Source: Pontibacter deserti (GTDB lineage: Bacteria > Bacteroidota > Bacteroidia > Cytophagales > Hymenobacteraceae). Taken from it: a stretch of DNA of 64,000 nucleotides. The stretch's first letter is position 1. Each line of letters starts with the position of its first letter. The notes under the pieces were generated by a model, which was not told the origin of the DNA, ran no database searches, and worked only from the letters and a program-made list of their open reading frames with translations. The stretch covers positions 1,550,001 to 1,614,000 of the forward strand of contig NZ_JALPRS010000001.1 in NCBI RefSeq assembly GCF_023630255.1, read 5' to 3'. Below are positions 4,885 to 25,084 of this stretch, piece by piece. Both the position numbers and the translations under genes were made by a program.

Positions 4885-4917
4885 TACCATTTAGCACACC
4901 TGATTTTTGATTCTTGT

Positions 4918-9205: not shown

Positions 9206-9227
9206 CAGAAGAATTTATACTAGAACT

Positions 9228-10946
9228 ATGGCTGTAACCCCAAACTTACAGGATTATACTTCTGTCACCGCTGGTTTCAGTTGGGAAAAGGAACAGTCTA
9301 GCCTAACCGGTTTACCAAACAACCAGGGCCTCAACATTGCACACGAGGCCATTGACCGACATGCCACAAGCGAATTAAAGGATCAGGTTGCCTTCCGCTT
9401 TATTCATAAAGACAGGTCTGTAATGGACTGCACCTACAAAGATTACCTGGAGCTGACCAACCGGTTTGCCAATGTACTGGGGGAGTTAAATGTAAACAAA
9501 GGTGATCGGATTTTTTCATTTCTGGGCCGGATACCAGAGCTATACTTTGCGGCGCTGGGTACATTAAAGAAAGTAGCCGTTTTCTGTCCGCTGTTCAATG
9601 TATTTGGGCCGGAGCCAGTGTTTCAGCGCCTGAGTCGTGGCGATGCTAAAGTATTGGTTACTACCAAAGATTTGTTTGAGAAGAAAGTACGCCAGTTGCT
9701 GGAGCGGCTGCCGGAGTTAAAATATGTATTACTGACGGACATAGACCAAGATGAAGATGAACAGATCCGCTCACTGCCCCGCCTGATGGAACAGGCTTCG
9801 GATGAGTTCATCATCCCCCCTACCGACCCTGAGGACCCGGCGCTGCTGCACTTTACAAGCGGTACCACCGGCATGCCCAAAGGTGCCTTGCACGTGCACA
9901 AAGCTGTGCTGGTACATTACGTAACCGGTAAGTATGTGCTCGACTTCCATCCAGGCGATATCTACTGGTGTACCGCTGATCCGGGCTGGGTAACCGGTAC
10001 TTCTTATGGCATTATCGCTCCGCTTGTGAATGGTGTAACAAATGTAGTGGATGAAGAAGAGTTTGATGCCACACGATGGTATTCTATACTGGAAGAACAG
10101 AAAGTCAACGTCTGGTATACTGCTCCCACCGGTATCCGCCGCCTGATGCGCATGAACATCAACCCACGTGAAAAGTATAACCTCGAGAACCTGCGCCTGA
10201 TGCTGAGTGTGGGCGAACCGCTGCACGCAGAGGCTGTAGTATGGGGTGAGAAAAACTTCGGTATGCCTTTCCTGGATAACTGGTGGCAGACTGAAACCGG
10301 TGGTATTATGATCGCCAACTATAGGGCGATGCAGGTAAAGCCCGGCTCTATGGGTAAACCACTGCCAGGTGTAGAAGCAGCTATTGCCGAGGTAATCGAT
10401 GACAGTTTCAGAATTATTGAGGAACCTGACAAAGACGGGCACCTGGTACTAAAGCGTGGCTGGCCCTCCATGTTTCGCACTTACCTGCACGACGAAGAAC
10501 GCTATAACAAAAGCTTCCACGGCGACTGGTACATTACCGGTGATCTGGCCAAACGCGACACAGAGGGATATTACTGGTTTGTTGGCCGTGCAGATGACAT
10601 CATCAAAACTTCCGGCCATATGGTGGGACCTTTTGAAGTAGAAAGCGCGCTGATGGAACACCCAGCCATAGCCGAAGCCGCTGTTATCGGTAAACCCGAT
10701 CAACTGATAGGAGAACTGGTAAAAGCTTTCATTGTGCTGAAACCGGAACAACACGCTGATGAGAACCTGAAGATGGATATCACAGCACATGCCCGGAGAA
10801 AGCTAGGTCCTGCTGTGGCACCTAAAGAAATTGCTTTCATAGATAATTTACCAAAAACCAGAAGTGGCAAGATATTGCGCAGGCTACTAAAGGCTCGTGA
10901 ACTCGGTTTACCGGAGGGGGATTTGTCGACGCTGGAGCAGCCGTGA
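9228..10946 (+). CDS. acsA: Acetyl-CoA synthetase, AcsA type
   Basis: The AMP-forming ligase converts acetate (or a short acyl acid), ATP and CoA to acyl-CoA through an acyl-adenylate. The phosphate-binding loop TSGTTGMPKG starts at Thr210. Further motifs are WCTADPGWVTG, DNWWQTETGG, and a C-terminal hinge and domain ending in PKTRSGKILRR with catalytic Lys548. Its 572 residues match Bacillus AcsA better than the roughly 650-residue Acs of enterobacteria. PKTRSGK is the motif commonly regulated by lysine acetylation, but no acetyltransferase gene is nearby. It lies between the SDR and pdhA-type genes. A 111-base gap with a palindromic repeat follows it. Confidence 0.92.
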   Translation: MAVTPNLQDYTSVTAGFSWEKEQSSLTGLPNNQGLNIAHEAIDRHATSELKDQVAFRFIHKDRSVMDCTYKDYLELTNRFANVLGELNVNKGDRIFSFLGRIPELYFAALGTLKKVAVFCPLFNVFGPEPVFQRLSRGDAKVLVTTKDLFEKKVRQLLERLPELKYVLLTDIDQDEDEQIRSLPRLMEQASDEFIIPPTDPEDPALLHFTSGTTGMPKGALHVHKAVLVHYVTGKYVLDFHPGDIYWCTADPGWVTGTSYGIIAPLVNGVTNVVDEEEFDATRWYSILEEQKVNVWYTAPTGIRRLMRMNINPREKYNLENLRLMLSVGEPLHAEAVVWGEKNFGMPFLDNWWQTETGGIMIANYRAMQVKPGSMGKPLPGVEAAIAEVIDDSFRIIEEPDKDGHLVLKRGWPSMFRTYLHDEERYNKSFHGDWYITGDLAKRDTEGYYWFVGRADDIIKTSGHMVGPFEVESALMEHPAIAEAAVIGKPDQLIGELVKAFIVLKPEQHADENLKMDITAHARRKLGPAVAPKEIAFIDNLPKTRSGKILRRLLKARELGLPEGDLSTLEQP

Positions 10947-10993
10947 TAAAAGCTGGCGCGGGTTTATCATATAGTTGTATTTATAATCCAATT

Positions 10994-11036
10994 GGGCCGG
11001 AGGCCCAAACTATAGCAGGCACGAGCGTGGACGCTC
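10994..11036. repeat. REP-like double palindrome, copy A
   Basis: Two small hairpins lie side by side: GGGCC-GGA-GGCCC (10994-11006) and GAGCGT-GG-ACGCTC (11023-11036), joined by a linker containing CTATAG. The same two-hairpin unit in reverse orientation is found at 21640-21683. It sits in the gap between acsA and the E1 alpha gene and could stabilise or attenuate the operon message. Confidence 0.7.
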
Positions 11037-11057
11037 ACACCATTATTTGTCATACTC

Positions 11058-12047
11058 ATGGAACAACAACCGCTGCAAAATATAAATCTAAACCCAGAGC
11101 AAGCCAAAAAACTGCTCTACCAGATGCTGCTTATCCGCAGGTTTGAGGAGAAGTCGGCGGAGATGTATACCAAGGAGAAGATCCGTGGTTTTCTGCATTT
11201 GTATGTTGGCGAAGAGGCGGTAGCCGTGGGTGTGATGCAGGCGCTACGGCCGGAGGATAATGTACTGTGCACCTACCGGGAGCATGGTCATGCGCTGGTG
11301 CGCGGCTTGGAACCAGGAGTGATCATGGCGGAAATGTATGGCAAACTGGAAGGCTGTAGTCGTGGTCGCGGTGGCTCTATGCACCTGTTCGATGCTAAAA
11401 CAAAGTTCTATGGCGGAAATGCGATTGTAGCTGGTCACCTGGCGATGGCAGTTGGGTTGGGTTTGGCAGACAAGAAGATGAAACGAAATCAGATCACCTG
11501 TTGCTTTTTTGGCGAAGGCGCCATGGCCGAAGGAGCTTTTCACGAAGCCATGAACCTGGCGGCGCTCTGGCAGGTGCCGGTGCTGTTTATTTGCGAAAAC
11601 AACCTGTACGCCATGGGCACTGCCATAAAGTATACCCACGCCCAAACCGATCTGGAGAAGAAAGGAGCCGCTTATGGTATAGCTTCTGCTTCGGTAGACG
11701 GCATGGATCTGATGGCGGTGATGCAGGCCGCCAACACGGCGGCTGAAAGTATACGCCAGACGGAGCAGCCATACTTTCTGGTTTGCAATACCTACCGCTT
11801 CCGGGCGCACTCTATGTTCGATGCTGAATTATACCGTGAGAAAAGCGAAGTAGAAGAATGGAAAAAACAAGACCCTATAACTGGCTTCTTTAAGTACCTA
11901 ACACAACAGCAGATTCTTACTGATCATAATTATAAAGAGTTGGAAGCACAGGTAGAGCAGGAAATAAACAAAGCTGTTGAGTTTGCCGAAACCTGCAACT
12001 GGGAGCCGGTGGAGGAACTTGCAAAGTATACTTACAGCGAAAGATAA
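11058..12047 (+). CDS. pdhA: 2-oxoacid (pyruvate) dehydrogenase E1, alpha subunit
   Basis: The 329-residue subunit has the thiamine-diphosphate site of two-subunit E1 enzymes: [20 protein letters not shown] and, after the usual interval, ICENN. The first motif has Glu where Asp is more common, which still fits metal binding. [24 protein letters not shown] and RGRGGSMH are typical of pyruvate and acetoin dehydrogenases, and [10 protein letters not shown] carries the regulatory-loop His. With the beta subunit and E2 downstream it decarboxylates a 2-oxoacid and passes the acyl group to lipoate. Pyruvate is the likely substrate, but acetoin dehydrogenase is a close alternative given the operon context. 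Confidence 0.88.
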
Positions 12048-12052
12048 AACCT

Positions 12053-13039
12053 ATGCCTGGTCAACTGATCACATACCGCGAGTGCCTGAAGCAAGCCATA
12101 CGGGATGCCTTGCTGGGTGATGAACGAGTGTTTGTAATGGGTGAAGATGTAGGGCGATACGGAGGCGCTTTTGCAGTGAGCAAGAACCTGTTACAAGAAT
12201 TCGGATCGGAGCGTATCATGGACACACCTTTGTCGGAGGCAGGTTTTGTGGGTGCAGGCATTGGTGCTGCCCTGGGCGGCATGCGGCCAATTGTAGAGAT
12301 CATGACCGTAAACTTCAGCCTGCTGGCTCTTGACCAGATCGCCAACAATGCTGCCACGCTGCTGCATATGTCGGGTGGGCAGTTTAATGTGCCGCTGGTG
12401 ATACGCATGAGCGCCGGAATTGGCAGGCAATTGGCCGCGCAGCACTCGCATAGTTGGGAGCCGCTGTTCGCACACCTGCCCGGTTTGCGCATACTATCAG
12501 CGGGCACTCACGAAGACGCCCGTCACATGCTCGCCCCTGCCCTTGCCGACCCGGATCCGGTCATCATCTTCGAATATACTTCGCTGCTAAACCTGGAAAA
12601 AGAGCTGCCAGAAAATATAAGCCAAGTAGATGTCAGCAAAGCTAAAGTTCGGCGCGAAGGCAAGGATATTTCCATCATCACCTATGGTACCGGTGTGTAC
12701 AAGGCTTTAACTGCTGCCGAAGAGCTGGCGGCCTCAGGGATAGATGCCGAGGTGTTAGACCTGCGCGTGCTGCGTCCGTTAGACGATGAAACTATACTTG
12801 CTTCGGTTACTAAAACCAACCGCGCGTTTATAGTGGAAGATGCCAGCAGATCGGTGAGCATATCATCAGAAGTGAGTGCCCGCATTATGGAGCGCTGCTT
12901 TTACGACCTGGATGCGCCGGTGCAGCGGCTGTGCGGAGCCGAAGTGCCTATCCCCTATCCCAAGCATTTAGAAGACGCCGCCGTGCCTCAACCAGCCCAG
13001 ATTGTATCCTCCATCAAAACCATGCTGCAACATGCTTGA
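12053..13039 (+). CDS. pdhB: 2-oxoacid (pyruvate) dehydrogenase E1, beta subunit
   Basis: The 328-residue subunit begins with the transketolase-like pyrimidine domain ([37 protein letters not shown]). The C-terminal domain has [14 protein letters not shown] and [12 protein letters not shown], as in PDH and acetoin dehydrogenase beta subunits. It forms a heterotetramer with the alpha subunit and completes the thiamine site. The gene follows pdhA after 5 bases and overlaps the E2 start by 8 bases, which implies translational coupling and equal output of the complex parts. Confidence 0.9.
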
Positions 13040-14276
13040 ATATAAAATGCCTAGCCTCGGTGCCGATATGGAAAGCGGCTTTCTGCGTGAGTGGCGTGTA
13101 AAGGCCGGCGACAAGATCCGTAAAGGAGACATCATTGCTGAAGTGGAAACGCAGAAAGGCATTGTAGAGATCGAAGTGTTTGATGAAGGTATAATTGGTG
13201 AACTGCTGGTTCAGGCAGATGAACAGGTACCCGTAGGAAGAACTATGGCAACTATACTTACCGAAGAAGAAGCAGGCAAAGCAGCAACTGTACCGACAAA
13301 GGCTGCCGCCCCTTTAATTGAAAAAGCTGTAGCACCACCACACCACATACGCGCCTCACCGCTGGCCAGAAGAATTGCTTCTGAGAAAGGAATTGATATT
13401 GCCACTATACATGGTACGGGCCCAGACGGAGCTGTTACAAGGGAGGATGTAGAGCACGCCATAGCTGCACAAGTTGCTCCTCCAGCAACGATGTCAGAAA
13501 AACCTGAACTGAGTAAAGAAGCTGCGCCCGCAAGACCGGAAGAAAAGCCTGTTACTCCAGCGATAGAAGTTCCGCCAGCTGCCCCTAAAGAACCTCCTAA
13601 AGCACCGGTCGCCTCAGCTGAAACTATACGCATGGCCGTAGCCGCTGCCATGAGCAAATCGAATCGGGAAGTGCCGCATTATTACCTCGAAACTAAAACT
13701 GACATGCAACCTGCGCTTACCTGGCTGACAGAAGCAAACAAGCAAAGGCCGGTAAAAGAGCGGTTACTACCGGCGGTGCTGCTGATAAAAGCTGTAGCAA
13801 AAGCTCTATCTGATGTGCCAGACCTGAATGCCTGGTGGGAAAACGGGCTACAGCGAAAGGAAAGTATAAATGTGGGCTATGTGGTAGCATTGCGGACAGG
13901 TGGCATTATGGTACCGACTATACACGATGCCGATACAAAATCGCTGGATGAAGTCATGCTGGCGCTGAACGACCTGATTCCGAGAGCACGTGCCCTGCGG
14001 TTGCGTAGCTCTGAATTAGCCGACTCTACTATCACCGTTACCAGTTTGGGCGAAGGCGGCGTGGAAACTGTTTATGGTGTGATTTACCCTCCGCAGGTGG
14101 CCTTGGTTGGTTTTGGTGGCATAACTGAACAGCCCTGGACTGAGAACGGCATGCTGGCTGTGAGGCCTGTACTCAAAATCACACTCGCCGCTGACCACCG
14201 CGCCTCCGACGGCAGCACCGGCAGCCGCTTCCTTACCGCCATCAAAAATTACCTGCAACAACCTGACAAACTATGA
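13032..14276 (+). CDS. Dihydrolipoamide acyltransferase (E2)
   Basis: I start the protein at the ATG overlapping the end of pdhB, giving [10 protein letters not shown], the usual first strand of a lipoyl domain. Lipoyl Lys42 lies in [10 protein letters not shown] (more often ETDKA). An Ala/Pro-rich linker follows, then a peripheral-subunit-binding domain ([17 protein letters not shown]), a second Pro-rich linker and the acyltransferase core with DHRASDG near the C-terminus (catalytic His389, Asp393). The 414-residue length, single lipoyl domain and Gln before the lipoyl Lys are closer to acetoin or atypical PDH complexes. No lipoamide dehydrogenase gene lies in the window, so E3 must be borrowed. 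The stop overlaps the acyl-carrier gene by 4 bases. Confidence 0.88.
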
Positions 14277-14521
14277 CACAGGAAGAGATAAAGCAGGCGC
14301 TGCTCCTGCGCCTAAAAAGTATAGCGCCCGACACCGAGCCGGCACAACTGCAACCCGACGATAATATCCGTCTAACCCTAGGTATAGACTCGTTCGATTA
14401 CCTGCAATTTATTGTAGCGCTGGATGATCAGTTTGGCATTGATACACCGGAAGAGGATTACAGTAAGATTCAGACGCTGAAGGAGCTCACAGAGTATGTG
14501 GAAGCTAAGGTGAAGAAGTAA
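14273..14521 (+). CDS. Acyl carrier protein, operon-linked
   Basis: An 82-residue four-helix carrier domain. Ser40 in LGIDSFDYLQF is the phosphopantetheine attachment site (DSF in place of the usual DSL). The protein is acidic, as carriers are. Its ATG overlaps the E2 stop (ATGA), so it is translated with the dehydrogenase complex and not with fatty-acid synthesis genes, none of which are in the window. This suggests that the acyl group made by AcsA or by E1/E2 can be moved to a carrier thiol for a dedicated product. That role is inference; the carrier-domain call itself is firm. Confidence 0.85.
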   Translation: MTQEEIKQALLLRLKSIAPDTEPAQLQPDDNIRLTLGIDSFDYLQFIVALDDQFGIDTPEEDYSKIQTLKELTEYVEAKVKK

Positions 14522-14670
14522 TGAGTACAAATTCAACTGTTTCACGAAACTGGTTTGGCACAAAAACAGAAGCGGGATGATCATTTTTATACTTAGATCA
14601 TCAATGGTGATAAATAAAAATCAATTATAAATTGATGACTTCCTGCTGATTTCATGGTTTACCACCACTC

Positions 14671-15324
14671 CTAATTCTTAACTTCAAGGGTACCTACCTT
14701 TGGTAAAATCTGGATCACAAATCTACGATCGCGGATATCACCTTTACGGCCTGCACCTTCAAAGCCGCTTCCGGCAGCAATAAGCTCTATTCTGTCTTTA
14801 GGAAATTTTATACCGGCACTTTGCCAGAACTTAAGAAGTGATAGTGCACGCTGGTAACTTAACTGAAGTGCATATTCCCGCTGCGTAACATTACGGGGGT
14901 CACCAGCCGGAAAACTGGCAGCGCGCCCATCAATTACGATCAGGTATTTTACATCTTTCTCGTCTATCGAATTGATGACCTGGCTCAGGTTCTGGCCTGC
15001 CCTGCGTAGTGGTACCCGCGAACGCTCAGGTATAACAGCACTGCTTTGTTCGAACAGTACATCAACTAATAACTCGTGGCGTTTATACTTTTCATTGTAC
15101 TGGAAATAGTCGTCATCCAGGCGGGCGAGAGCGGCCTTTATTTCATCCAGTTTGCGCTTTTCCTGCACTTCAACCTGCAGCCTGGCAATGTTCTCACGGT
15201 TCTCCTGGTCTTTGCCTTCAAACATTTTATAGCTCAACACAAAAAGCACCAGCATCACCAGGAAAAGCACTGTCATCAGGTCGACGTAACTGGGCCAGAA
15301 AAAGTCTCTGCTCTCCTTGCTCAT
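14671..15324 (-). CDS. ZorB/MotB-like stator subunit with OmpA-like domain
   Basis: The 217-residue protein begins with a short cytoplasmic tail, then WPSYVDLMTVLFLVMLVLFVL, a single membrane helix. Asp15 sits at the place of the proton-carrying Asp of MotB, TolR-like and ZorB proteins. A coiled linker (about 40-95) leads to an OmpA/MotB-like peptidoglycan-binding domain whose end has the LSYQRALSLLKFW helix, AAGSGFEG and DRRFVIQI. With the upstream MotA-like gene (2-base gap) it should form a proton-driven stator anchored to the cell wall. It is the last gene of the seven-gene operon. Alternative: an ExbD-type energiser. The stator-family call is strong; the ZorB analogy is structural inference. 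Confidence 0.8.
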   Translation of the reverse strand: MSKESRDFFWPSYVDLMTVLFLVMLVLFVLSYKMFEGKDQENRENIARLQVEVQEKRKLDEIKAALARLDDDYFQYNEKYKRHELLVDVLFEQSSAVIPERSRVPLRRAGQNLSQVINSIDEKDVKYLIVIDGRAASFPAGDPRNVTQREYALQLSYQRALSLLKFWQSAGIKFPKDRIELIAAGSGFEGAGRKGDIRDRRFVIQILPKVGTLEVKN

Positions 15325-15326
15325 AC

Positions 15327-17081
15327 TTACCTCCTGCTATTCCCGCCACCGAATATTTTACCAAGCGCCGCTTTAAAAGGACCAGGTTCCATACTTTTCA
15401 ACATCAATGTGTTTAGGGTATGTATCTGCTGCAGTAACTGCTGCTGAATAACAGCATCTGCTTCCATTTTCTGGAGCAGGCGTTCGTTTGTCTGGCGTAT
15501 CTCACCGGATAGTTGCTGTTGTGTGGAGTTAAGTCTTTCCTGCTGCTGATTCAGGTTCTCGAAAGGCTGCATGTAATCCAGGATGCGCTGGTAAATGTTG
15601 TCTTCGTTCAAGTTCCTGAAATGCTCCTGCCACTTTTCGTATGCATTCTGTGCATCGCGTTCCTGGTGTTGCAAACGTGCCTCCATCAGGTCAGTCAGGC
15701 GCAGTGCCGCTTTATCAAAATACTGCTCTATCCGAGAGCCAATATCTTGTAATTCGCGTTCGTGCTGCCCAAAGAAATTAACCTGCCGTTGAATGGATTC
15801 GTCGTGTTTTTGCAGGTAGCCCGGCACCTGGTCAAAGCCTTCCTGCAGGCTGGTTAAGCGGCCAAGTACATCACTAATCGTATGAGTTAGTTCCGCACCT
15901 TTCTGCACCGATTCGTTTAGCGCCACCTGGTACTGCATAAAGTTCCTGAACAACTGCTCGCTTTCCTTCATCTTATCGAACACCTGCAGGTTAGCATTCG
16001 CCATCTGCGTGAAGCCAATTTTATCCAACTTCTCAATAAATTCTTTTTGGGTGCTGATGTTTTCGGTAAGGGTATCAACTATAGGCCGGAAGCCCAGTAC
16101 TTTGTCGAGGAAATCTTTATTAAACGAATCCAGCACTGATTTCAGGTTGCTTAAGCTAGCAGCCATGTCAGAGTTCAGCTTTGGCAGCAGGTGCGTTTGC
16201 AGGAAAGTATAATAATCATTTTGGCGTCTGTCTCTTATACTTCGGGCATTCTTCAAGGCATGATTTCCCATCAACGTAAGCAATAAACCACAGAAGCTAC
16301 CGGCCATGGCAATCATCACCCCAAACAGAAAAGAAGGAATGTTCTGATCAGTTATAAAAGAGCCTGCCGTACCATCATCTGAAGTAAAACCCGACCAGAT
16401 CAAACTCGACAAACCGATAATGACACCTGAAAAAGTACCCAGCAAACCAATGTATAGCGGTGTAGTAATGGTAGACTGTACTTCTGCATCCAGGGCTTCG
16501 GAGTAGCGCTCCGACACATCTTTCAAAATATCGAAATCAGCAGCTGCACCCTTATTACGTTTCAGGTACTCGTTGGTGTTTTTGATGATCTTACTGAACG
16601 TCTCAGACGGATTCCGGACTTCGATCAGATCTATAGTTGCAGCACCTTTCCCACCCGAAGCCACTGTACTTACCAATGCATCCGGATCGCCCTGCACCAG
16701 GTAAATATTATGCCCCATTACAAGCTTATCAAACTTTTCGCGGGCAATAGTATAAGCCGGCACCGGACCACCTTTCGCTTCAATGTGCAACAGGTCGTTC
16801 TCTACAGAAACTATCCGCTTTACAGTTGGGTTGGATGGCGTAAATTCGCGGAAAGGTTTGCCTGCCAGGAGTGCCGTCCATAGTAGTTCAGTAGTCTGAG
16901 TTGCGGTGGTAACTTTTGGCGCAGTATGATCGAGCAATGATTCCGTTACGGATAGTTGTTCTTCGGAAGGAAACAGGTTCTTGATGAGCTCAATTTTAAC
17001 CTTGTTATTCCTGTATACATAAAACTGGTAACCAAGTATAGCAAGTACTAAAAGTGCTTCAAAAATAAATATACCTTCCAT
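15327..17081 (-). CDS. ZorA/MotA-like stator subunit with long coiled-coil tail
   Basis: The 584-residue protein has a first membrane helix at about 4-23, a cytoplasmic segment, and the MotA/TolQ/ExbB core made of helices near 208-229 and 250-270. GLLGTFSGVIIGL at 212-224 is the conserved Gly-rich pore helix. From about 290 to 570 the sequence is continuous heptad-like, Gln/Glu-rich coiled coil, the feature that sets ZorA apart from ordinary MotA or ExbB. The end, about 15 residues, is basic and Gly-rich. It pairs with the OmpA-domain gene directly downstream. The tail may couple motor rotation to a cytoplasmic partner, plausibly the tubulin- or Hsp70-like proteins of the same operon (inference). 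Confidence 0.8.
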   Translation of the reverse strand: MEGIFIFEALLVLAILGYQFYVYRNNKVKIELIKNLFPSEEQLSVTESLLDHTAPKVTTATQTTELLWTALLAGKPFREFTPSNPTVKRIVSVENDLLHIEAKGGPVPAYTIAREKFDKLVMGHNIYLVQGDPDALVSTVASGGKGAATIDLIEVRNPSETFSKIIKNTNEYLKRNKGAAADFDILKDVSERYSEALDAEVQSTITTPLYIGLLGTFSGVIIGLSSLIWSGFTSDDGTAGSFITDQNIPSFLFGVMIAMAGSFCGLLLTLMGNHALKNARSIRDRRQNDYYTFLQTHLLPKLNSDMAASLSNLKSVLDSFNKDFLDKVLGFRPIVDTLTENISTQKEFIEKLDKIGFTQMANANLQVFDKMKESEQLFRNFMQYQVALNESVQKGAELTHTISDVLGRLTSLQEGFDQVPGYLQKHDESIQRQVNFFGQHERELQDIGSRIEQYFDKAALRLTDLMEARLQHQERDAQNAYEKWQEHFRNLNEDNIYQRILDYMQPFENLNQQQERLNSTQQQLSGEIRQTNERLLQKMEADAVIQQQLLQQIHTLNTLMLKSMEPGPFKAALGKIFGGGNSRR

Positions 17082-17090
17082 GTAAGCGGG

Positions 17091-18014
17091 TTATCTGAAA
17101 TCGATTCTGGCTTTCTCCTGTATTCTCCAGCCGTTGTTTACTTTAGCCAGCACGCCATCCTGCTGCTGCACTATCCTGGATACCATGCGGTTCGATGGCT
17201 TCTCAAAATCAAAGGCATTCTCCAGGCGATCTATACCTTGTGAGATAACAAAAGCATGATTTCCCCCCAGATTAAAACGGTAACGCGTCATGTTGCTGCC
17301 ATCAGCCGGGGTATCAATTTCAATATAACTATCAGAATCGGGTCGCAGCTGCAACTGGTGCTGACGTATCACCCCGTCTTCCGGAATAATAGCGTATAAG
17401 ATTCCTGATTCTGCAAGAACTTCCGACTCAGCCTCCGGCATAGGTGCTGGCTGGCTTAATCCGGCTTCCTGTTCCAGTTCATCCAGCAGATCGCTACCTG
17501 CTATTTCAAGTCTGATACCATTTGAGGCTGGTAGTTGCTGCTCTCTTTCTGGCTCATTATAGTTCATTCTTTCTCTTGGTTCGTTACGTCTGCGGTTCTC
17601 CTTTTTACGTTTCTGCTGCTCCGGCTGAAGGGTTTCCTGCTGTTGTGGGAGTTGTTTTTCCTGCGGACGTCTTTCCTGTAGTTGGCGATCTGGTTGTGGA
17701 GTTTGTCTTTCCTGTTGTGGCCTTTCCTGCTGAGGTTGTCTCTCCCGCTGTTTCTGACGTGGTTCCTGTCGCTCCGGTTGCTGCTCTTGTCGCGGCAGGT
17801 TTTTTCGGCCAGTCTCTGTTTGTTCTAAAGCAGGCTTAGTCCCACGATTAGAAGCGCTTTGTAGTTTATTCTGATTTGCCTCAAGGTATTTAATACGTTC
17901 CTTCAGCGACTCTATCCTTTTTGATAAAATATGATGGGTGCTGTTAGCCCTGAGAAAAGCAAAACCTGCTCCTGCCAGCGCTATTATACTTATTATAACT
18001 GCAATTGTAACCAT
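17091..18014 (-). CDS. Membrane-anchored Gln/Arg/Pro-rich linker protein
   Basis: A 307-residue protein of no family I recognise. It has an N-terminal membrane helix (about 2-20), a short coiled coil (KRIESLKERIKYLEANQNK), a highly charged low-complexity linker from roughly 65 to 165 dominated by Gln, Arg, Glu and Pro, and a compact C-terminal domain of about 130 residues beginning around GIRLEIAGSDLLDELEQEAG. That domain contains GGNHAFVISQGIDRLENAFD and ends in basic residues. The architecture is that of a membrane tether that holds a globular binding domain away from the bilayer. It is 9 bases upstream of the ZorA-like gene and clearly belongs to that operon. Confidence 0.7.
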   Translation of the reverse strand: MVTIAVIISIIALAGAGFAFLRANSTHHILSKRIESLKERIKYLEANQNKLQSASNRGTKPALEQTETGRKNLPRQEQQPERQEPRQKQRERQPQQERPQQERQTPQPDRQLQERRPQEKQLPQQQETLQPEQQKRKKENRRRNEPRERMNYNEPEREQQLPASNGIRLEIAGSDLLDELEQEAGLSQPAPMPEAESEVLAESGILYAIIPEDGVIRQHQLQLRPDSDSYIEIDTPADGSNMTRYRFNLGGNHAFVISQGIDRLENAFDFEKPSNRMVSRIVQQQDGVLAKVNNGWRIQEKARIDFR

Positions 18015-18132
18015 CTATAAAATTGTTTTTCTGATTGAGAAGTAATGTCTTTTAAAGTATAAATATACCATCCACCATTCCTAACTATAATTTGCAGGAG
18101 TGATGGATGGTATACATTAGAACCTATGCACT

Positions 18133-21100
18133 TTAGGAAATAGCCGTTACCTGTGCCTGCTGTTTATACAGCTCTTTCGACAGCAAGTATAGCGACTGCT
18201 TGAGCGGCATGAAGAACATAGTCTCGTGCAGTTGCTCCCTGTCTGTCAGGCCACGTACAGTGTCTTCCAGAACCATCGTGTAGCTATCCTGCAGGTTCAT
18301 GCGCATAAACTCCAGCACACGTCTTGGGTCCACTTCTACGCCCATCGAGCGCATCAGCGGCGAAATATCCGGATCGTCCAGTAGCATGGTCAGGCAGTTC
18401 ATCACGTTGTCCATCACTTCCTGGCGAAGTTGCCCGGTGATCTGTGTCTTAGTTACTGGAGCAAGAGCGTCTGCAATGTTGGCCGAACCAGTAGGACGCA
18501 TGATCGGGATGTTGGTCAGGTCGTTCAGGTCGGTTCCTTCCAATGCCATGGCACCGCCGTTGGCTGTTACCTGCTTCGGATTATCTACCAGTACCAACTT
18601 AAAATTAGCCGGTGGCTCCTGACCCGTTACCTTATGGAAAATAGCTTTGGCATAGCGCTCCACATTCGACAGGTTATTACCAGCACTCAAGAGCTTGATG
18701 TATAAACTACCGCGGCCGCTGAACGAGATGTAACGAGGCACTTTCACGTCTAATTGCTGCACCAGTTGTGCCAGGTGGTACATCAGCGAACCAAAGTGCA
18801 GGTAGAACATCAAACGCAGCTGACGCGCCTGCAGGAGCTGAGAACTATAGTTTAGCTCCTTGTCGTAGCTGAACAGCAAGGAGCTGATGTCGGCAGAGTT
18901 GAAATCCGGATTGTCCAGGGCTGTTTCCAGGAACTTACGGTATTCACGACCTTCTTCTGTTAAAGGTATGCGCAGCACATGATCTACCCCATACTGCAGC
19001 AGACCGTTGTCTTTCTGAGTCTTTACCGTAGCAAAGCCATCGCCCCACAGGTCGTTCCCAGCAAAGCGGAACGAGGAGCTATGCGAAGGTCTGCGGTTGG
19101 TGAACAGCAGCACGTCGGTCGTACCACCACCTATGTCCACGTTGATCAGGTTCTCGTCCTGGCTCGGCACCACCGCACCGGTCCTGGACAGGAAGTAAAA
19201 CGGCGCTACCGACTCGGTAATGCACACGGTTGTTCTGCCATTCTTGAACACGTTGTTATACACGGTATCCCACACGTTCTGGAACATGTTGCGTGAGTAT
19301 TCATCAAAGCTCAGCGGCGCAAACCACACGATCTTGGTGCTCGCCACGTTGCCATGGTTCAGTACCACCTTGTTCTTGATCAGCAGCATGATCTCGGTGA
19401 AGAACGCTTCAATACGGCGTTTGCCGGTGTTAGTCAGCGTCTCGCTCCACTTCAGATCGGTGTGGTAGGTCTGCTTGTACTGGTCCTGGTGCGTACCTTC
19501 GGTGTTGATCGAGAAACCGATGTTGATGTTACCAAACAGGTTCGTGATCTGGTTCTCAAAATCCAGCGACTCGCAGGTTGCCGTACGGGTTGGGAAGTTA
19601 TATAAAGAGCCTCCAGAACCGATGATCAAAGGTATAAATTCGCGCTTGAGCAAAGTCTCCACAGCAAACAGACGGCCGAAGCCACGCTTGTGGAAACGCT
19701 GGTAATCTGTCAGCGAAGGATCGTCGGAAGGCTTGTTCAGCATAACCAATTGCTGGTCGTTAGCCGTGATAGAAAACTCACGCGGCGGCTGGTTAGCACC
19801 CGAAGTATAAGCAATGTGCGTGTTCGAAGTACCAAAATCGATAGCAAAGGTAAAGTTATGGATACCCTGCTGCATTTCCTGAAACTTCGGCACGATGAGC
19901 GCCTTGCCTGTGAAGTCTACACCGGCATGCGTAAACTCAGCATAATCAAAATGGGTACCACGTACTTCATAATAAGTGCTGCCAGCGCTGCTGTTACTCT
20001 TCTTGGTTCTACGATGTGCTGTAGCCGAAATAATACCGCCACCAGCTTCCAGTTGCTTGCCACCTACAAAGAAGCTGAGCGAGTGGTTCTTGTTTACTAG
20101 CAGCGGATCAATGTCTTCGTCCACCAGCATGACCTTGTAGAAGTCATTGTACTGCACCGCGTCGGTAAACTTGTAGAACGGAAACACACCCAGACCAATT
20201 CTGGATTTCAGGATATGGCCTTTTTCCGGAATCACGTTGCCATGCGCGTCTTTCGAGTTCAGCGGATTATCGTAGTAGCTGCGCTCGTACACCACATCTC
20301 CGCGCTCGGTCGGCACACGCAGCGTTACGCGCACGTGGTTCACATCGATGTGGAAGGTCAGGTGGTTGGACAGGTCTTCCGGGTTGAAGAACTGGAAGTA
20401 TAAGCTGGTAACCGGCAGCAGGTAATTAAACGATTTCTCCGTTACGCCCGGCTGGTATACCACGGTACCGCTGTAGAAACGGTCGGTATTCACCTCGTAA
20501 GGCACCTGCACCAGCGTCTCCTGTAACAGGTCGTTGATGGTTAAGTATGGATAGTTGAACCCGACGCCCGGAAGTGAACGGTTCTCCAGTGGTTTTTCAT
20601 CGTAATATCCGACTACCGTATTTACCGGCCAAGCCAGGTTATTTACATACTTTATATTCGGTGCCAGTCGCAGCTCAGGTTTTAGTACGATTGGTCGTTC
20701 GCCTGCAAAACCGGTATGGGTTGGGCGAATGAACAGATCGCTGCTCGTAACGGCTGTCTGATCTTTCTTCACCAGGAAGTTCAGGTGGCCGACATGTACC
20801 GGGTTCTGCTGGAAATCTACCAGTTGCAGATATTCAGAAGCAATGGCGTTCTGTCCTACATTACCGGCCATGTTGATCTTGCGCAGCAGGTTCTCGTCCA
20901 GTGAATTATACACCGCCGGAAATGCCTGGATCATCGCTGGGTTCGACACAAACAGCTTGTGCACATACTCCCTGAAATCCTGCTCACGGTCTTCCAGCGA
21001 CACATAGTTATGGTCGAAGTAAGTACCGATGTTCTGCGCACGGTTTATACTTAATGGCTGCACGTTTGGCGCTACAAACAGGAAGGTCAGTGGTGATGTA

Positions 21101-21597
21101 CCGCCGATCAGCTGCATGTGTCGGTCACCGCGTGGGCTTGTGGATTCGAAGAAGATCAGGAAAATATCATCGATGCCCTGGAAGCGGCTGTCGTTCATGA
21201 ACAGCTCCAGCGTGCGGCCCAGCAAACTCGTGTTCGGGTTTGCCTGCATGGCACCCAGTTGCTGGTGCTTGTTCCAGCGACGGATTATGATCTTGTTGCC
21301 CGCCTGTGCGTAGCTCTGGTGGTTATAAAGCAGTTCCCACAGATCCCAGAAATGCGTCACAAATTTGTGATATACAGTATTTGTGTTGTTACCTGCTACA
21401 CCACGCTTTACAAAGTCGAAAGCGGTTTCGAACAGGTGCATACGGGCAAACGGCGTAGGTATAGAAGCATTGATCTTCAAGGCTCTGCCACCGGCGCCAT
21501 CGGTTATATCTTTAATCTCGGTGCTTGTGATCTGGCTGGTTTTAGCCCAGCCTTCCACGTTTGATCCGGTTTTATGTAGACGAAGTACTTTCGGCAT
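18133..21597 (-). CDS. Large protein with C-terminal Hsp70/actin-like ATPase domain
   Basis: I use the ATG at 21597 (MPKVLRLHKTG). The longer frame upstream would translate a palindromic repeat and has no protein character. The 1154-residue product has about 575 N-terminal residues I cannot assign, then an actin/Hsp70-fold ATPase. Phosphate-1 motif DFGTSN is at 587-592, phosphate-2 motif VDIGGGTTDV at 820-829 and an adenosine-type motif SFSGRGS at 958-964. The insertion lengths do not fit DnaK, and the typical peptide-binding domain is absent. ATP-dependent conformational switching, or polymerisation as in MreB/ParM, is likely. SrfB-like virulence-associated proteins are a possible relative. 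It lies 119 bases upstream of the linker gene and downstream of the tubulin-like gene. Confidence 0.75.
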   Translation of the reverse strand: MPKVLRLHKTGSNVEGWAKTSQITSTEIKDITDGAGGRALKINASIPTPFARMHLFETAFDFVKRGVAGNNTNTVYHKFVTHFWDLWELLYNHQSYAQAGNKIIIRRWNKHQQLGAMQANPNTSLLGRTLELFMNDSRFQGIDDIFLIFFESTSPRGDRHMQLIGGTSPLTFLFVAPNVQPLSINRAQNIGTYFDHNYVSLEDREQDFREYVHKLFVSNPAMIQAFPAVYNSLDENLLRKINMAGNVGQNAIASEYLQLVDFQQNPVHVGHLNFLVKKDQTAVTSSDLFIRPTHTGFAGERPIVLKPELRLAPNIKYVNNLAWPVNTVVGYYDEKPLENRSLPGVGFNYPYLTINDLLQETLVQVPYEVNTDRFYSGTVVYQPGVTEKSFNYLLPVTSLYFQFFNPEDLSNHLTFHIDVNHVRVTLRVPTERGDVVYERSYYDNPLNSKDAHGNVIPEKGHILKSRIGLGVFPFYKFTDAVQYNDFYKVMLVDEDIDPLLVNKNHSLSFFVGGKQLEAGGGIISATAHRRTKKSNSSAGSTYYEVRGTHFDYAEFTHAGVDFTGKALIVPKFQEMQQGIHNFTFAIDFGTSNTHIAYTSGANQPPREFSITANDQQLVMLNKPSDDPSLTDYQRFHKRGFGRLFAVETLLKREFIPLIIGSGGSLYNFPTRTATCESLDFENQITNLFGNINIGFSINTEGTHQDQYKQTYHTDLKWSETLTNTGKRRIEAFFTEIMLLIKNKVVLNHGNVASTKIVWFAPLSFDEYSRNMFQNVWDTVYNNVFKNGRTTVCITESVAPFYFLSRTGAVVPSQDENLINVDIGGGTTDVLLFTNRRPSHSSSFRFAGNDLWGDGFATVKTQKDNGLLQYGVDHVLRIPLTEEGREYRKFLETALDNPDFNSADISSLLFSYDKELNYSSQLLQARQLRLMFYLHFGSLMYHLAQLVQQLDVKVPRYISFSGRGSLYIKLLSAGNNLSNVERYAKAIFHKVTGQEPPANFKLVLVDNPKQVTANGGAMALEGTDLNDLTNIPIMRPTGSANIADALAPVTKTQITGQLRQEVMDNVMNCLTMLLDDPDISPLMRSMGVEVDPRRVLEFMRMNLQDSYTMVLEDTVRGLTDREQLHETMFFMPLKQSLYLLSKELYKQQAQVTAIS

Positions 21598-21639
21598 GTT
21601 TGTTTCAGTTTGATTAAGTATTGTTTGCCTTTTATGGCG

Positions 21640-21683
21640 CGAGCGTCTTCGCTCGTGACTAACTATAGCTGGGCTTCTGGCCC
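21640..21683. repeat. REP-like double palindrome, copy B
   Basis: CGAGCG-TCTT-CGCTCG (21640-21655) is followed by a linker with CTATAG and then GGGCTTCTGGCCC (21671-21683). On the opposite strand the order and sequence match copy A at 10994: a GGGCC...GCCC hairpin, then CTATAG, then CACGAGCG...CGCTC. It lies in the 243-base gap between the tubulin-like and Hsp70-like genes. Confidence 0.7.
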
Positions 21684-21720
21684 TTAACTTTGTTTTCCGG
21701 ATTTGCAATCCGAAAGAGAG

Positions 21721-21840: not shown

Positions 21841-23292
21841 CTAACTATACTTCAGCTTTTCCTCCACCAGGTTTTTAGTCGCAGTTTCGAATGCTTTTAT
21901 AGTGGCCTTGAAAGCATCGCGGTCGGAGATGGATTCTGAGGCGCGGTTAAGCTCTTTGACAAAGGAGCCCTGGTGAATGCCCTTGTTCAGGAAACCGGTC
22001 TCGATCTGTTTGTCCGACACCATGCGGTTGAAGTCTGTTTCGTTCAGGTTCAGCGCAGCAAAAGTTCTTTCCTTGCGGCTAAGCTCACGCAGCCATGCCT
22101 GGTAACCGAACTCCGGATTTGTCAGGAACTTGTTCAGTTCGCGGAACACCGGTTCGTTACGGATAGCGCTGGTCAGATCCACACCTTTGGCATAAGCGGC
22201 TTGTGCGTCGCCTGGAAGGTGCGTAGTATAGTAGCGCTCAAAATAATGGAAACGGATCAACTGCTTGGCAATACGGTCCTTGGTCTCATTATCGAGGTGT
22301 TGGAACTGCACGTTGCTTATGTCCTCGCGGAGGCCATACTCGTGGTATACTTCATTACCCGAAAGCTCATTGTCGGAGTAATCCATAAAGTCTACGATTG
22401 CCAACGCGCTTAAAAGCTCTACTAAATGTGCGTCATTTCGCTGGCTGGCTCGGCCCGGGTTGTTCTCCATAGGCTTGTCCGGCGCGTCGCCCATGTAGTA
22501 TACCGCATTCACGCCATTCAGGTGGTTTTGGTAATACGACAGCGCGTCTTTCGCTTTGGTAGTAAAGGTATTAGAATCGATAAAGTCGGCTTCTACCCCA
22601 GCAGCAGGTTGCTCCAAAGAAAAGTATGGCAACACCACCATGGCCCCTGTTAGGGCTGTATTTATACTGGCAGCATTAGGCAACGTTGTGCGCGGATCTT
22701 TGAAATTTTTCAGCAGCAGCGGGAAACCGGCAGCGCCTGTTCCACCAAATATCGAGCTAACAAAAAAGATACGGTCGCCCGGCTGGAAGTTCGAAGCAAA
22801 AAAGCGCATTTCCGGAGAATCAATGATCTCGTTGAGTACCACGCTGCCCACATTCGGACTACCACGGAAGCCCACATCAAGGCTGTTGTTCAGGTTCTCG
22901 GGCGTAAACAGCAAATCCATCAGCGCTTGGCTTTCGATGTCGAGCTGGTTGTAACCCACATGGTCTTTAAAAGGCTTGTTAATGCCGCCGAAATCATACA
23001 CAAAACTATCGCGGATCTTGGCAGTACCATCACCGGCTATACTTGACAGGGTGCTGATATCGGTGTGGAAGAAACCTTCGTCGCGGCGACCAAGGGAATC
23101 GTGAATGTGCTTGTAGGTTTTTAGCAGCTCCACGGTGCGGTTCATGTCGCCGTTCTGCGTGTCCGGATCAATGATGATCGGTACGATTTTATCACAGTTC
23201 TGAATTTTGACACCTGCGGCCATCAGCATGACCAGCGAACGGATCACACGGGAACCGGTGCCACCTATTCCGAATACAAAAAGCTTTGCCAT
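21841..23292 (-). CDS. Tubulin/FtsZ-like GTPase
   Basis: The 483-residue protein starts with a Rossmann-like Gly-rich strand-loop, FVFGIGGTGSRV (residues 6-17), as in tubulin-superfamily proteins. It carries a tubulin-type signature loop SIFGGTGAAGFP with GGTGAAG at 183-189 (consensus GGGTGSG). The intervening VPIIIDPDTQNGDMNRT could contact the nucleotide ribose. The C-terminal third is helical and unlike FtsZ. It fits the large, little-studied tubulin-like family (Tubulin_2 type) and is not a FtsZ paralogue. GTP binding is likely; polymerisation is unproven. It lies between the small membrane protein gene (2-base gap) and the Hsp70-like gene, in the motor operon. Confidence 0.78.
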   Translation of the reverse strand: MAKLFVFGIGGTGSRVIRSLVMLMAAGVKIQNCDKIVPIIIDPDTQNGDMNRTVELLKTYKHIHDSLGRRDEGFFHTDISTLSSIAGDGTAKIRDSFVYDFGGINKPFKDHVGYNQLDIESQALMDLLFTPENLNNSLDVGFRGSPNVGSVVLNEIIDSPEMRFFASNFQPGDRIFFVSSIFGGTGAAGFPLLLKNFKDPRTTLPNAASINTALTGAMVVLPYFSLEQPAAGVEADFIDSNTFTTKAKDALSYYQNHLNGVNAVYYMGDAPDKPMENNPGRASQRNDAHLVELLSALAIVDFMDYSDNELSGNEVYHEYGLREDISNVQFQHLDNETKDRIAKQLIRFHYFERYYTTHLPGDAQAAYAKGVDLTSAIRNEPVFRELNKFLTNPEFGYQAWLRELSRKERTFAALNLNETDFNRMVSDKQIETGFLNKGIHQGSFVKELNRASESISDRDAFKATIKAFETATKNLVEEKLKYS

Positions 23293-23294
23293 AG

Positions 23295-23708
23295 TTATTT
23301 TTTGTTAGGCCATTTCATAGGAGTTGTCCATGCCTGCACGGAGCCTCTTTTGAGTAGTATAGAGAAAACGAAAAAAAGGATCAGGCTGTATATCACGTTC
23401 ACAAAAGCGAACATGTACGTGTAAGAGTGCTTCTCGATCTCGTTGCCGCTCACCTGCGTGATTGGGATAATGAAGGCGATGATCGCGTTCAGGATTAGGA
23501 ACATTACCCAGTGCTGGGTTTTATACAGGCCAGTGCTCATGGCGCGGTTCAACACATAGTAGTACAGAATAACGATTCCCAGTGTGATGATGAACAACAT
23601 CAGCCCCGTGTTCGGGAAAACCACCTCGCGGTAATCGTTGGTGAAGTTTGCAGGGATTGGCCGGCCTAAAACCAGTTCGTAGAGTCCAGAAAAAAACTTT
23701 TGTATCAT
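23295..23708 (-). CDS. Small three-helix membrane protein of the motor operon
   Basis: A 137-residue protein with three hydrophobic segments, near residues 35-55 (LMLFIITLGIVILYYYVL), 68-86 and 99-120, and a basic C-terminus ending KWPNKK. I recognise no family. The short gaps to its neighbours (5 bases after the lipoprotein gene, 2 bases before the tubulin-like gene) show that it is co-expressed with them. It may link the outer-membrane or periplasmic lipoprotein to the cytoplasmic tubulin-like protein, but this is inference from position only. Confidence 0.7.
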   Translation of the reverse strand: MIQKFFSGLYELVLGRPIPANFTNDYREVVFPNTGLMLFIITLGIVILYYYVLNRAMSTGLYKTQHWVMFLILNAIIAFIIPITQVSGNEIEKHSYTYMFAFVNVIYSLILFFVFSILLKRGSVQAWTTPMKWPNKK

Positions 23709-23713
23709 GCTTG

Positions 23714-25084
23714 TTAGTCAGCTTTGTTAAATTGTATGGTTGCATTAAAAACGAAGTCGCTCTGGTCGCGGTAAAGCGCCTGAACGCCATCTATTATCTT
23801 GGTTAACTGGTAAGTCTTTTTCGGAGCCGCTGCCGGGTTGTTGTCGTTATCGGTTGACCATGTCGTGATCCAGTTTGGCGTAACCTGCGGCAACTGCACG
23901 GATATGGTACCCGAATTAGCGGTTAGCTCGGGTACGCGCACCCGCACAAAATGACTATGCTTAGCCAGGTCCGGTGTGGCTTTTATACTTTCGTCGGCGG
24001 CTGTAACCGAAACTATAATTGGCCTGCTGCCCGTGCTGCTTACTTTCAGATTCTTTTTTAGGTAATCAATACTTTGCATGGACATCGGCAGGCTGCTCAG
24101 GTCCAAACCAATTGTAAATTCGACTGGTTCTTTCTTTTCAGGCTGCATATTTACCGAGGTACACGGATCGGCGTTGCGGCTGCTGCAGTACACTACTCCG
24201 GCTGGTTTGAATTGCTTTTCTTTAAGTAGTGCAGAGTATGGTACGGCCTTATACTCAAAACCAAAGTATGCCTGCTGAGCCGGCAGGTTACGAAGCACTT
24301 TATTTGTAACCACCTGCACATCCTGCTGCTTCCCAATCACCCAGATATAATAAGGAATCTCTTCGCCGTTGAGGGCGCGTCTTACCTCAGGCTTCTTTAC
24401 AGCCGGGTGATACGTGCCGAAGAAAGGCGATGAATTGGCAAGTATAGCAATGGCCAGTCCCTGGTGCTCGGCTTCTCTAAGGCTGCTCCTGATGTCCGAA
24501 TCCAATGAAATAAACTGCCCCTGGTCGCGCGGGTCCGGGCCATGTATAAAATCCGAAATAATAATGCTGACAGCTCCTTGGTCAATTGACTTTTGCAAAG
24601 CAGCTTTTAGCATAGCCGGTAGCGGTGTGCCTCGCACATCATCCTTGATACCACTAACGATATAACTTTTCATGGTATTGTATGACACGCTATCCAATAC
24701 AGGACGACTTTGCGCGTCTTCCTTAGCCAGGTAAAAAGCCTTTTTAGCTACGTAGCGTCCGTCCTCTACTTCCGAGATCAGCTTGTTCAGGTTATTCTGG
24801 AAGGTTGTAGCTTCTTTGCCGGCTGCCGGTGTTGGCATAAAGCCTTTCATACCGTTCGATATTTCCAGAAATACATTCACATTTACCTTTTCGGGTGCAG
24901 CAGTTACTGCAGGTGCTGTAGATGCTGGCGTTTTAGTGGCAGCGGGTCTATCATTTTGAGCCGGTGCTGTGGTAGCAGGGTCGGTTTCGTCGTTTCCGGA
25001 CTGCTTTTTAAAACACCCGGTTAAGACGAACATGATGAGAAGTAGTAGCAAACAGGAGCTACGCACAATCCTTTTTAGAAGCAT
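23714..25084 (-). CDS. vWA-like lipoprotein, first gene of the motor operon
   Basis: The 456-residue protein has a lipoprotein signal ending FVLTGC (Cys24), a Thr/Ala/Pro-rich tether (about 35-65) and then VNVNVFLEISNGMKGFM. This sits where a von Willebrand A domain has DxSxS; here the first Asp is Glu and the rest is degenerate. SIIISDFIHG at 173-182 resembles the second acidic vWA strand. The C-terminal half is beta-rich (EFTIGLDLSSLPMS, PIIVSVTAADES), perhaps an Ig-like or sandwich domain. It is probably periplasmic or on the outer membrane. As the promoter-proximal gene it could be the sensing part of the system. The vWA assignment is moderate and metal binding is doubtful. Confidence 0.65.
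   Translation of the reverse strand: MLLKRIVRSSCLLLLLIMFVLTGCFKKQSGNDETDPATTAPAQNDRPAATKTPASTAPAVTAAPEKVNVNVFLEISNGMKGFMPTPAAGKEATTFQNNLNKLISEVEDGRYVAKKAFYLAKEDAQSRPVLDSVSYNTMKSYIVSGIKDDVRGTPLPAMLKAALQKSIDQGAVSIIISDFIHGPDPRDQGQFISLDSDIRSSLREAEHQGLAIAILANSSPFFGTYHPAVKKPEVRRALNGEEIPYYIWVIGKQQDVQVVTNKVLRNLPAQQAYFGFEYKAVPYSALLKEKQFKPAGVVYCSSRNADPCTSVNMQPEKKEPVEFTIGLDLSSLPMSMQSIDYLKKNLKVSSTGSRPIIVSVTAADESIKATPDLAKHSHFVRVRVPELTANSGTISVQLPQVTPNWITTWSTDNDNNPAAAPKKTYQLTKIIDGVQALYRDQSDFVFNATIQFNKAD

Follow-up and report, generated by a model that had tools for sequence, protein, structure and literature searches.

The question raised by the locus described here is why a gene for a membrane motor subunit of the MotA/ZorA type, bearing a long tail, is part of an operon that also encodes a tubulin-like GTPase and an Hsp70/actin-like ATPase. 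The locus lies in a stretch of 64,000 nucleotides (hereafter the window) from Pontibacter deserti (family Hymenobacteraceae; NCBI RefSeq assembly GCF_023630255.1, contig NZ_JALPRS010000001.1, positions 1,550,001 to 1,614,000), and the protein of interest, referred to below as MotA, is specified by the sixth of seven minus-strand genes, which encode in order a lipoprotein, a small protein with three transmembrane (TM) helices, the tubulin-like GTPase, the Hsp70/actin-like ATPase, a 1-TM protein, MotA and its partner MotB. Based on the results presented below, we regard this locus as a real variant of the FtsZl1 kind of operon with a Zorya-related motor module, and consider it an even chance that MotA acts as subunit A of an ion-driven inner-membrane motor with 5:2 stoichiometry (MotA5-MotB2, similar to ZorAB), through which a tubulin system of the FtsZl1 type spans the envelope.

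Length and structure of the MotA tail

An earlier note on this DNA had proposed that about half of MotA lies past the last membrane helix and is heptad-rich, and this description was borne out. Hydropathy places the first TM helix at residues ~4-22 and the other two as listed in Table 1, leaving ~312 of the 584 residues (53%) beyond the last of them. Within the tail (residues 275-584), hydrophobic periodicity at the heptad scale reached a peak of 116.1, in comparison to a mean of 46.2 and a maximum of 94.3 for shuffled sequences (0 of 200 as high), whereas the periodicity of the TM1-TM2 loop is ordinary, with 48 of 200 shuffles as high. In an AlphaFold2 model of the monomer, based on a 20-sequence alignment (mean pLDDT, the predicted local distance difference test score, 66.6), the protein is helical with short breaks over residues 248-576, and an unbroken helix extends from TM3 over residues 248-330. 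The tail is thus predicted to be helical, rather than globular or periplasmic. ExbB, TolQ and ZorA share a 3-TM layout and flagellar MotA has a 4-TM layout, and the MotA of this operon matches the former; from this family topology we take the tail to be on the cytoplasmic side.

The note had also stated that ordinary ExbB, TolQ and MotA proteins end soon after their last helix, and the measured lengths agree with this, the tails being of 21-79 aa in ExbB/TolQ (n=32) and 56-67 aa in MotA (n=7). The tails of 84 relatives of the operon-type MotA measured 281-531 aa with a median of 313, a range that is bounded by the admission of only those rows with 0.6-1.6 times the median protein length, and those of ZorA measured 397-613 aa (n=9). 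Based on these lengths, the tail resembles that of ZorA and differs from those of ExbB/TolQ and MotA. A beta-rich insert (residues ~43-155) is also present in the TM1-TM2 loop, but it is shorter or missing in many relatives; extra beta structure in the A subunits of Zorya was noted in a stator study of 2025 (PMC12505986), but as the present insert is lineage-specific, nothing should be drawn from it.

Relationship of MotA and MotB to the Zorya motor proteins

No single-sequence match to ZorA was obtained, the PADLOC ZorA1 model giving an E value of 0.92 for the window MotA, and the Pfam MotA_ExbB model matched 11 of 20 relatives and left the window protein unmatched at E up to 0.5. However, if profiles are compared with profiles, then the full-length MotA is matched to ZorA (9 sequences) with a probability of 97.2% (E 3.9e-11), to ExbB/TolQ (32 sequences, made up of 30+2) with 65.2% and to MotA (7 sequences) with 22.8%. 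After removal of the tail these values became 95.3%, 73.7% and 62.2%, respectively; reversed controls for the trimmed core gave 0.5-2.6%, whereas the full ZorA reversed gave 30.6%, presumably via its coiled coils. A search of the MotA profile against PDB sequences gave only weak matches, mostly to helical chains (best E 0.014). In a tree of 57 rows and 166 columns, which 12 of the 30 Bacteroidota ExbB/TolQ sequences entered, the operon-type MotA proteins form a clade of their own (98/97) that adjoins ZorA (97/93). Three long-branch rows (S_L076, ZorA_Paeruginosa and Exb_L198) were left out of this tree and the row L159 was dropped in trimming; with the long-branch rows kept, two changes are required for the MotA clade, whose single very long branch (4.44) is L076. 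ZorA, and not a simple ExbB, is thus the nearest characterised relative by both profile and tree, and the operon-type MotA probably represents a sister group of ZorA rather than a member of it. However, the resemblance of the two tails should not be interpreted as showing that they are homologous, for the probability of the profile match between the tail of MotA and that of ZorA (6.8%) is below that of the reversed control (18.8%), and no homology is detectable.

The expected MotB-like partner is encoded by the last gene of the operon, and it too is nearest to its Zorya counterpart by all three comparisons made. PADLOC ZorB1 matches it at 1.4e-10 and the ZorB structure 8vvn_B in the PDB sequence search at E 1.8e-10, and in profile-profile comparison it scored 97.4% with ZorB, 92.3% with MotB and 0.4% with ExbD/TolR (2 sequences from E. 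coli), with 13.2% for reversed ZorB. Its OmpA domain matches Pfam OmpA at E 1.6e-5 (25.6 bits), just below the curated cut-off of 27.2. The residues lining the predicted ion path are highly conserved. If three rows from loci lacking motB, considered later, are set apart, then Thr is present at pore position 216 of MotA in 81 of 81 rows, position 262 is Ser in 79 and Thr in 2 of the same rows, and Asp15 of MotB is found in 81/81, as is its Arg159. From the retention of Thr216, Ser/Thr262 and Asp15 in every one of these rows, strong selection for the ion path may be concluded.

Proteins ExbB, TolQ, MotA and ZorA are described as 5:2 ion-driven motors, and in ZorA five C-termini are described as bundling to form the tail, which defence requires (PMC11890865). 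The present locus and Zorya are alike in having a 3-TM A subunit with pore Thr/Ser residues and a long C-terminal tail, and a B subunit with an ion-carrying Asp and an OmpA-like domain. They differ in that none of ZorC, ZorD, ZorE, ZorF and ZorG is found here (at E up to 1, PADLOC matched none of the seven proteins to ZorC-ZorD, ZorE or ZorF-ZorG), the tail lacks sequence homology and is mostly shorter, the GHTD motif of MotB is without its H and D, and the motor sits in a tubulin/Hsp70 operon. Membership in Zorya was rejected in view of the missing effector genes and the separate clade of MotA. With ExbB/TolQ and flagellar MotA the protein has in common the core fold and the pore positions, but it differs from them in its tail (312 aa) and, for the former, in the partner, ExbD/TolR being unlike the MotB found here. 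A plain ExbB/TolQ identity was rejected on the basis of partner and tail, and that of a flagellar MotA because of its lowest profile score and a Z of 7.9 in the fold search.

The operon, its products and its distribution

Three of the first four products of the operon may be described in more detail. In the lipoprotein, Cys24 is nearly invariant, and although no Pfam match was found, its AlphaFold2 model (pLDDT 81.8) retrieved mostly vWA domains (Rpn10, Ku, NorD) at the top ranks of a fold search against PDB, the best Z of 7.9 being under the caution line of the tool, with some immunoglobulin (Ig)-like matches for residues 277-455. A motif similar to the metal ion-dependent adhesion site (MIDAS), [DE]xSx[SG]M, is present in 70 of 79 relatives, and the strict form DxSxS in 5 of 79. 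All 17 relatives of the tubulin-like protein match Pfam Tubulin, and 16 of them match Tubulin_2 (best 3.2e-9), whereas the window protein alone gives E values of 3.7e-4 and 6.7e-3 for Tubulin and Tubulin_2, below the curated cut-offs. The tubulin profile found nothing among PDB sequences at 0.1. The Hsp70/actin-like protein contains an invariant DIGGGT motif, and its Met38 (a possible start, at 21597) is nearly invariant in relatives; it matches Pfam FtsA at E 9.9e-4, which is below the cut-off, and its profile matches the actin family, MreB and FtsA in PDB at E 0.004-0.07. At E up to 1, none of the seven proteins gave a Pfam match to a P-loop GTPase or to GAP1, Pfam presumably including models for both.

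Table 1. Features of the seven-gene operon in the window
Feature	Position	Strand	Remarks
MotA/ZorA-like motor subunit	15327..17081	minus	584 aa, ATG start, 3 TM and long helical tail
TM2 of MotA (residues 205-229)	16395..16469	minus	pore Thr216 codon 16434-16436
TM3 of MotA (residues 252-270)	16272..16328	minus	pore Ser262 codon 16296-16298
Helical tail of MotA (residues 273-584), putatively cytoplasmic	15330..16265	minus	from AlphaFold2 model, periodicity and conservation
MotB/ZorB-like partner	14671..15324	minus	217 aa, 1 TM, ion-carrying Asp15 (codon 15280-15282), OmpA-like domain
1-TM protein (p307), Q/R/P-rich middle	17091..18014	minus	307 aa; same place in 19/20 family loci
Actin/Hsp70-superfamily ATPase	18133..21708	minus	1191 aa by longest open reading frame; start perhaps 21597
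Tubulin/FtsZ-like GTPase (Tubulin_2 / FtsZl1 type)	21841..23292	minus	483 aa
Small 3-TM protein	23295..23708	minus	137 aa; same position in 20/20 family loci
Lipoprotein, predicted vWA domain and C-terminal Ig-like part	23714..25084	minus	456 aa

Due to the Tubulin_2 matches in 16 of the 17 tubulin members, the operon can be tied to the FtsZl1 family, for which Makarova and Koonin in 2010 reported operons that combine a tubulin gene with those for vWA and OmpA proteins, a kinase and a GTPase, and proposed a function in membrane remodelling (PMC2875224). Our locus shares with those operons the Tubulin_2 GTPase, a predicted vWA protein, an OmpA-domain protein, a kinase (in the second copy described later) and the association with the membrane, but the P-loop GTPase reported there is not seen here, and MotA, MotB and Hsp70 are not named in the main text of that work; unnamed families in its supplementary gene tables may be the same genes. 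A study of the FtsZ/tubulin family published in 2023 set Tubulin_2 proteins aside as divergent (PMC9871819). Kaur et al. (2020) described DO-GTPase systems with tubulin, Hsp70, vWA and kinase-phosphatase themes (PMC7159879), and these DO-GTPase/GAP1-N2 systems are similar in combining tubulin, Hsp70, vWA and kinase-PP2C-vWA in one type of neighbourhood; however, they are defined by the DO-GTPase and GAP1, neither of which is found here, and 'motb' is absent from the text of that source. Among open-licence papers in PubMed Central (PMC), none was found in which MotA/MotB occurs together with tubulin-like and Hsp70-like or anti-phage terms, and the literature matches listed included no experiments on FtsZl1/Tubulin_2 systems.

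Of 150 family genomes, 122 carry the motA gene, with 6 of 6 genera represented, and the gene order is kept in 20/20 sampled family loci. One of these (L053) has the tubulin-like and Hsp70-like genes each in two open reading frames (ORFs) and p307 unmatched, possibly a decaying copy or the result of assembly errors (genome G031). A wider scan covered 83 loci, consisting of the best 80 of 568 tubulin relatives (from a scan of genome contigs with a tubulin alignment, mostly named Bacteroidota) and 3 loci from viral contigs. All seven genes are present in 54 of these, 53 of them in the fixed order, and the rest have the first five only (13), lack motB only (5), have the first four only (5), lack p307 only (3) or are shorter (3), many of the incomplete loci stopping at contig ends. 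In a phylum sample, a two-sequence tubulin profile at 1e-10 matched 13 of 395 genomes, 4 of them from the family; nine of these loci, read further, comprise one with all seven genes, two that are cut or in pieces, five without motAB and one (L076) with MotB and a very divergent tailed MotA. Spirosoma loci keep the rest of the operon without motA and motB (no operon-type MotA was found in four Spirosoma genomes, and MotB was searched for in one), and due to this motAB can be regarded as a module on a tubulin/Hsp70 core. Among 50 genus genomes, 25 have a window-type copy, with tubulin identity of 85-99%; this, together with the presence in 122 of 150 family genomes, gives the look of a resident system. 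The flanks of the operon, an E2 gene and DinB, matched in 7 and 29 of the 50 genus genomes, respectively, and no clear empty site was seen among these.

A number of other copies may be recorded here. The tubulin/Hsp70 core without motAB is seen in Spirosoma and a related locus (L089, L092, L093, L097, L099, L104, L107, L109, L111 and L068); several of them encode a lipoprotein of the aspartic-protease type, and L107, the one that was scanned, also has a WG repeat in a 1-TM protein. Cyanobacterial plasmids of Gloeothece (L200) and Picosynechococcus (L201) have genes related to those for the lipoprotein, the tubulin and the Hsp70-like protein plus a multi-TM gene, again without motAB; all are annotated as hypothetical except one tubulin-like, the multi-TM protein is unmatched by any profile, and the lipoprotein gene of L200 is oppositely oriented. 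Operon copies also occur on three IMG/VR contigs filed as viral (L158-L160), of which L160 has motAB, a nuclease-like gene downstream and a helicase match upstream; its 10 scanned ORFs include helicase, antitermination-like, nuclease and NUDIX proteins and no clear phage structural gene, the lone 'portal' match being the NUDIX protein. Copies on contigs of metagenome-assembled genomes (MAGs) labelled Gracilibacteria, Leptospiraceae, Williamsia, Sulfuricurvum, Acetatifactor and Oscillibacter (L098, L101, L103, L112, L115 and L157) are likely misbinned from Bacteroidota, transfer being possible.

Proposed function of the predicted motor and alternative explanations

The explanation that we favour, to which we give about the same chance of being right as of being wrong, is that of an envelope-spanning motor-scaffold that links the periplasm to cytoplasmic nucleoside triphosphatases (NTPases). 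If this is correct, then both the vWA-like lipoprotein and the OmpA-like domain of MotB would be on the outer side of the inner membrane. The MotA ring would be turned or tilted as ions pass Asp15 of MotB and the ring of Thr216 and Ser262 of MotA, and the five MotA tails would come together as a rod in the cytoplasm, to which the tubulin-like GTPase, the Hsp70/actin-like ATPase or both may dock. The vWA-like lipoprotein and the OmpA-like domain would report on the envelope, so that an envelope event could lead to assembly or remodelling of the NTPases, and the output side in many relatives may include the proteases, which are lipoproteins, and the nucleases whose genes follow motB; no such gene is seen in the window copy. 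A motor with a cytoplasmic rod would provide a physical answer to the question, asked by a reviewer of the 2010 work, of how periplasmic vWA and OmpA parts could be reached by a tubulin located in the cytoplasm (PMC2875224). The FtsZl1/Tubulin_2 systems were predicted in that work.

Several observations weigh against this explanation. The pLDDT of the tail is 84-90 at residues 271-300 and 37-75 beyond, so that the model of the tail is of low confidence and is monomeric. In the phylogeny, the tree tool flagged long branches as meeting, and approximately unbiased (AU) tests reject neither a grouping of MotA with ExbB/TolQ (p 0.094) nor one with MotA (p 0.115). The fold comparison (VIA scores) resulted in a tie between TolQ/ExbB (Z 11.8) and ZorA (Z 11.2), with CorA at 10.0 and PomA at 7.9, all of them less than the value of ~13 at which the tool advises caution for helical bundles, and Foldseek found nothing at E 0.001, its best match being TolQ (4.6e-3), with TolQ/ExbB ranked above ZorA (0.07). 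The ZorA-style character proposed in the earlier note is upheld for the core, as judged by profile and tree, and for the possession of a long helical tail, but the AU tests permit placement with ExbB/TolQ or MotA. At the GHTD motif of the OmpA domain of MotB, the alignment column contains G in 81/81 rows, H in 0/81, D in 0/81 and T in 9/81, and H186 and D188 of ZorB are described as peptidoglycan-binding residues (PMC11890865); because the H and D are absent in all rows, peptidoglycan binding by MotB is unsure. Further, while the gene set and order, the 3-TM core, the pore residues, the kinship to ZorA and ZorB and the long conserved tail can be read from the sequences, the pentamer, ion flux, rotation, docking partner, signal and purpose are what we infer, and the docking partner is the weakest link among them. 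Lastly, the operon persists without ion flow in the genomes lacking motB.

The best surviving alternative, although an unlikely one, is that the operon serves in anti-phage defence similar to Zorya, in which the motor would sense a breach of the envelope by phage and trigger a protease or nuclease effector in or at the envelope. The kinship to ZorAB, the occurrence of the operon in 25 of the 50 genus genomes and the genes that follow motB in many relatives argue for it. The latter, as judged from one scanned member of each cluster, specify lipoproteins with a trypsin-like, retropepsin-like aspartic protease or transglutaminase-core domain, several of which share a start similar to C-x-x-C-S-R-S, followed by nucleases of the Exo_endo_phos or SNase type; in one case trypsin is fused to Endonuclease_NS. 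Once 12 Hymenobacter loci are left out, 37 seven-gene loci extend for 900 nt or more downstream; of these, 27 have a protease/transglutaminase gene less than 200 nt from motB, 14 a nuclease of two clusters in the locus, 13 have both, and 10 have no such protease. Such swappable outputs would suit defence, and the pairing of trypsin with NucA has been proposed as a conflict theme (Kaur et al. 2020, PMC7159879, section 32). However, Zorya effectors are lacking, no protease or nuclease ORF adjoining the window copy was seen by eye, and in the genus a dedicated lipoprotein protease occurs only with a second copy of the operon, other matches being of 27-40% identity in longer frames and taken as putative HtrA-like proteins. 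Further, PADLOC at 1e-10 matched 0 of 53 ORFs flanking the named loci, and nine families with one member each among 54 flanking ORFs of family loci, in both cases without a shuffled control. In view of these PADLOC-poor flanks and of a window-type copy that is widespread and slowly evolving, resembling a resident system, defence is retained as a rival and not as the main claim.

The second copy just mentioned is a full operon in the same genome (L032; G000:C1:415000-434000, positions 2857-18912), whose proteins are 21-40% identical to those of the window copy and whose tubulin had no match among phage records. Downstream of it are genes for a lipoprotein of the trypsin type, for two proteins that by eye are DUF805-like and vWA-like, and for PP2C and a Ser/Thr kinase, resembling a TerY-P triad. 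In two other loci (L039 and L041) a prolyl oligopeptidase (Pfam Peptidase_S9) adjoins motB in the same direction, with like-sized ORFs in L040 and L042-L045, and a few nucleases of the downstream clusters are on the opposite strand.

A further alternative, which we hold to be distinctly improbable, is that of a scaffold only, with MotA as an anchor whose tail gathers the cytoplasmic NTPases and for which ion-driven rotation is unimportant or ancestral. It derives from three loci without motB, viz. L083 (Catalimonadaceae), L079 (a Cyclobacteriaceae MAG) and L094 (a Flammeovirgaceae MAG), whose MotA proteins have F, F and T at position 216 and A, L and A at position 262, respectively. In these rows the match to the consensus is 0.43-0.50 for TM2 (14 columns) and 0.33-0.58 for TM3 (12 columns), the minima of the other rows being 0.64 and 0.58, whereas that of the tail (50 columns) is 0.60-0.66 as compared to a median of 0.66 in the others. 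The gene after motA encodes a protease-type lipoprotein, 50 nt on in L083 and 24 nt on in L094, and the L079 locus ends there. An operon-type MotB was found at E 1e-3 in none of the three genomes, the completeness of which is not known, while a control genome gave a match at 4.8e-49. As the tail is kept where motB and the polar pore residues are gone, it would appear to have a role independent of ion flow, and the simplest reading of these sequences is that the motor was lost and the tail retained. However, the three may share one loss event, and if so then the independence of this evidence is weakened, but not its existence. The suggestion in the earlier note that the tail transmits the motion of the motor is, in light of this, at best half the story. 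Against a scaffold alone stands the retention of Thr216, Ser/Thr262 and Asp15 of MotB in 81/81 rows, that of the window included. The conservation of the tail in the three genomes counts in favour of the motor-scaffold that we prefer as well. Genomes of this kind, which dropped the motor and kept the tail, make the question of what a tail serves in a motor, which Zorya also poses, testable in nature.

The last alternative, an ordinary energiser of an outer-membrane process similar to ExbB/TolQ, with an incidental tail, agrees with the tie in fold scores, the Foldseek ranking and the AU p of 0.094, but it is very improbable, as the partner is ZorB/MotB-like with an OmpA-like domain and scores 0.4% with ExbD/TolR, profile and tree prefer ZorA, the tail is of at least 281 aa in 84 of 84 length-filtered rows, and the genome encodes two other MotA_ExbB proteins above the cut-off. 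A broader form of the motor-scaffold explanation, put forward tentatively and somewhat doubtful as a whole, is that an ion-driven rotary motor, coupled by a pentameric rod to a tubulin GTPase and an actin/Hsp70 ATPase, is widespread in Bacteroidota, commands exported proteases and nucleases in many lineages and has been reduced to a scaffold in genomes that lost the motor.

Next to the operon, positions 8450-14521 of the plus strand of the window contain genes that by eye encode a short-chain dehydrogenase/reductase (SDR), an acyl-CoA ligase, a small acyl carrier protein and the E1 alpha/beta and E2 components of a ketoacid dehydrogenase. Only 7 of the 50 genus genomes match the E2 of this cluster at 1e-50.

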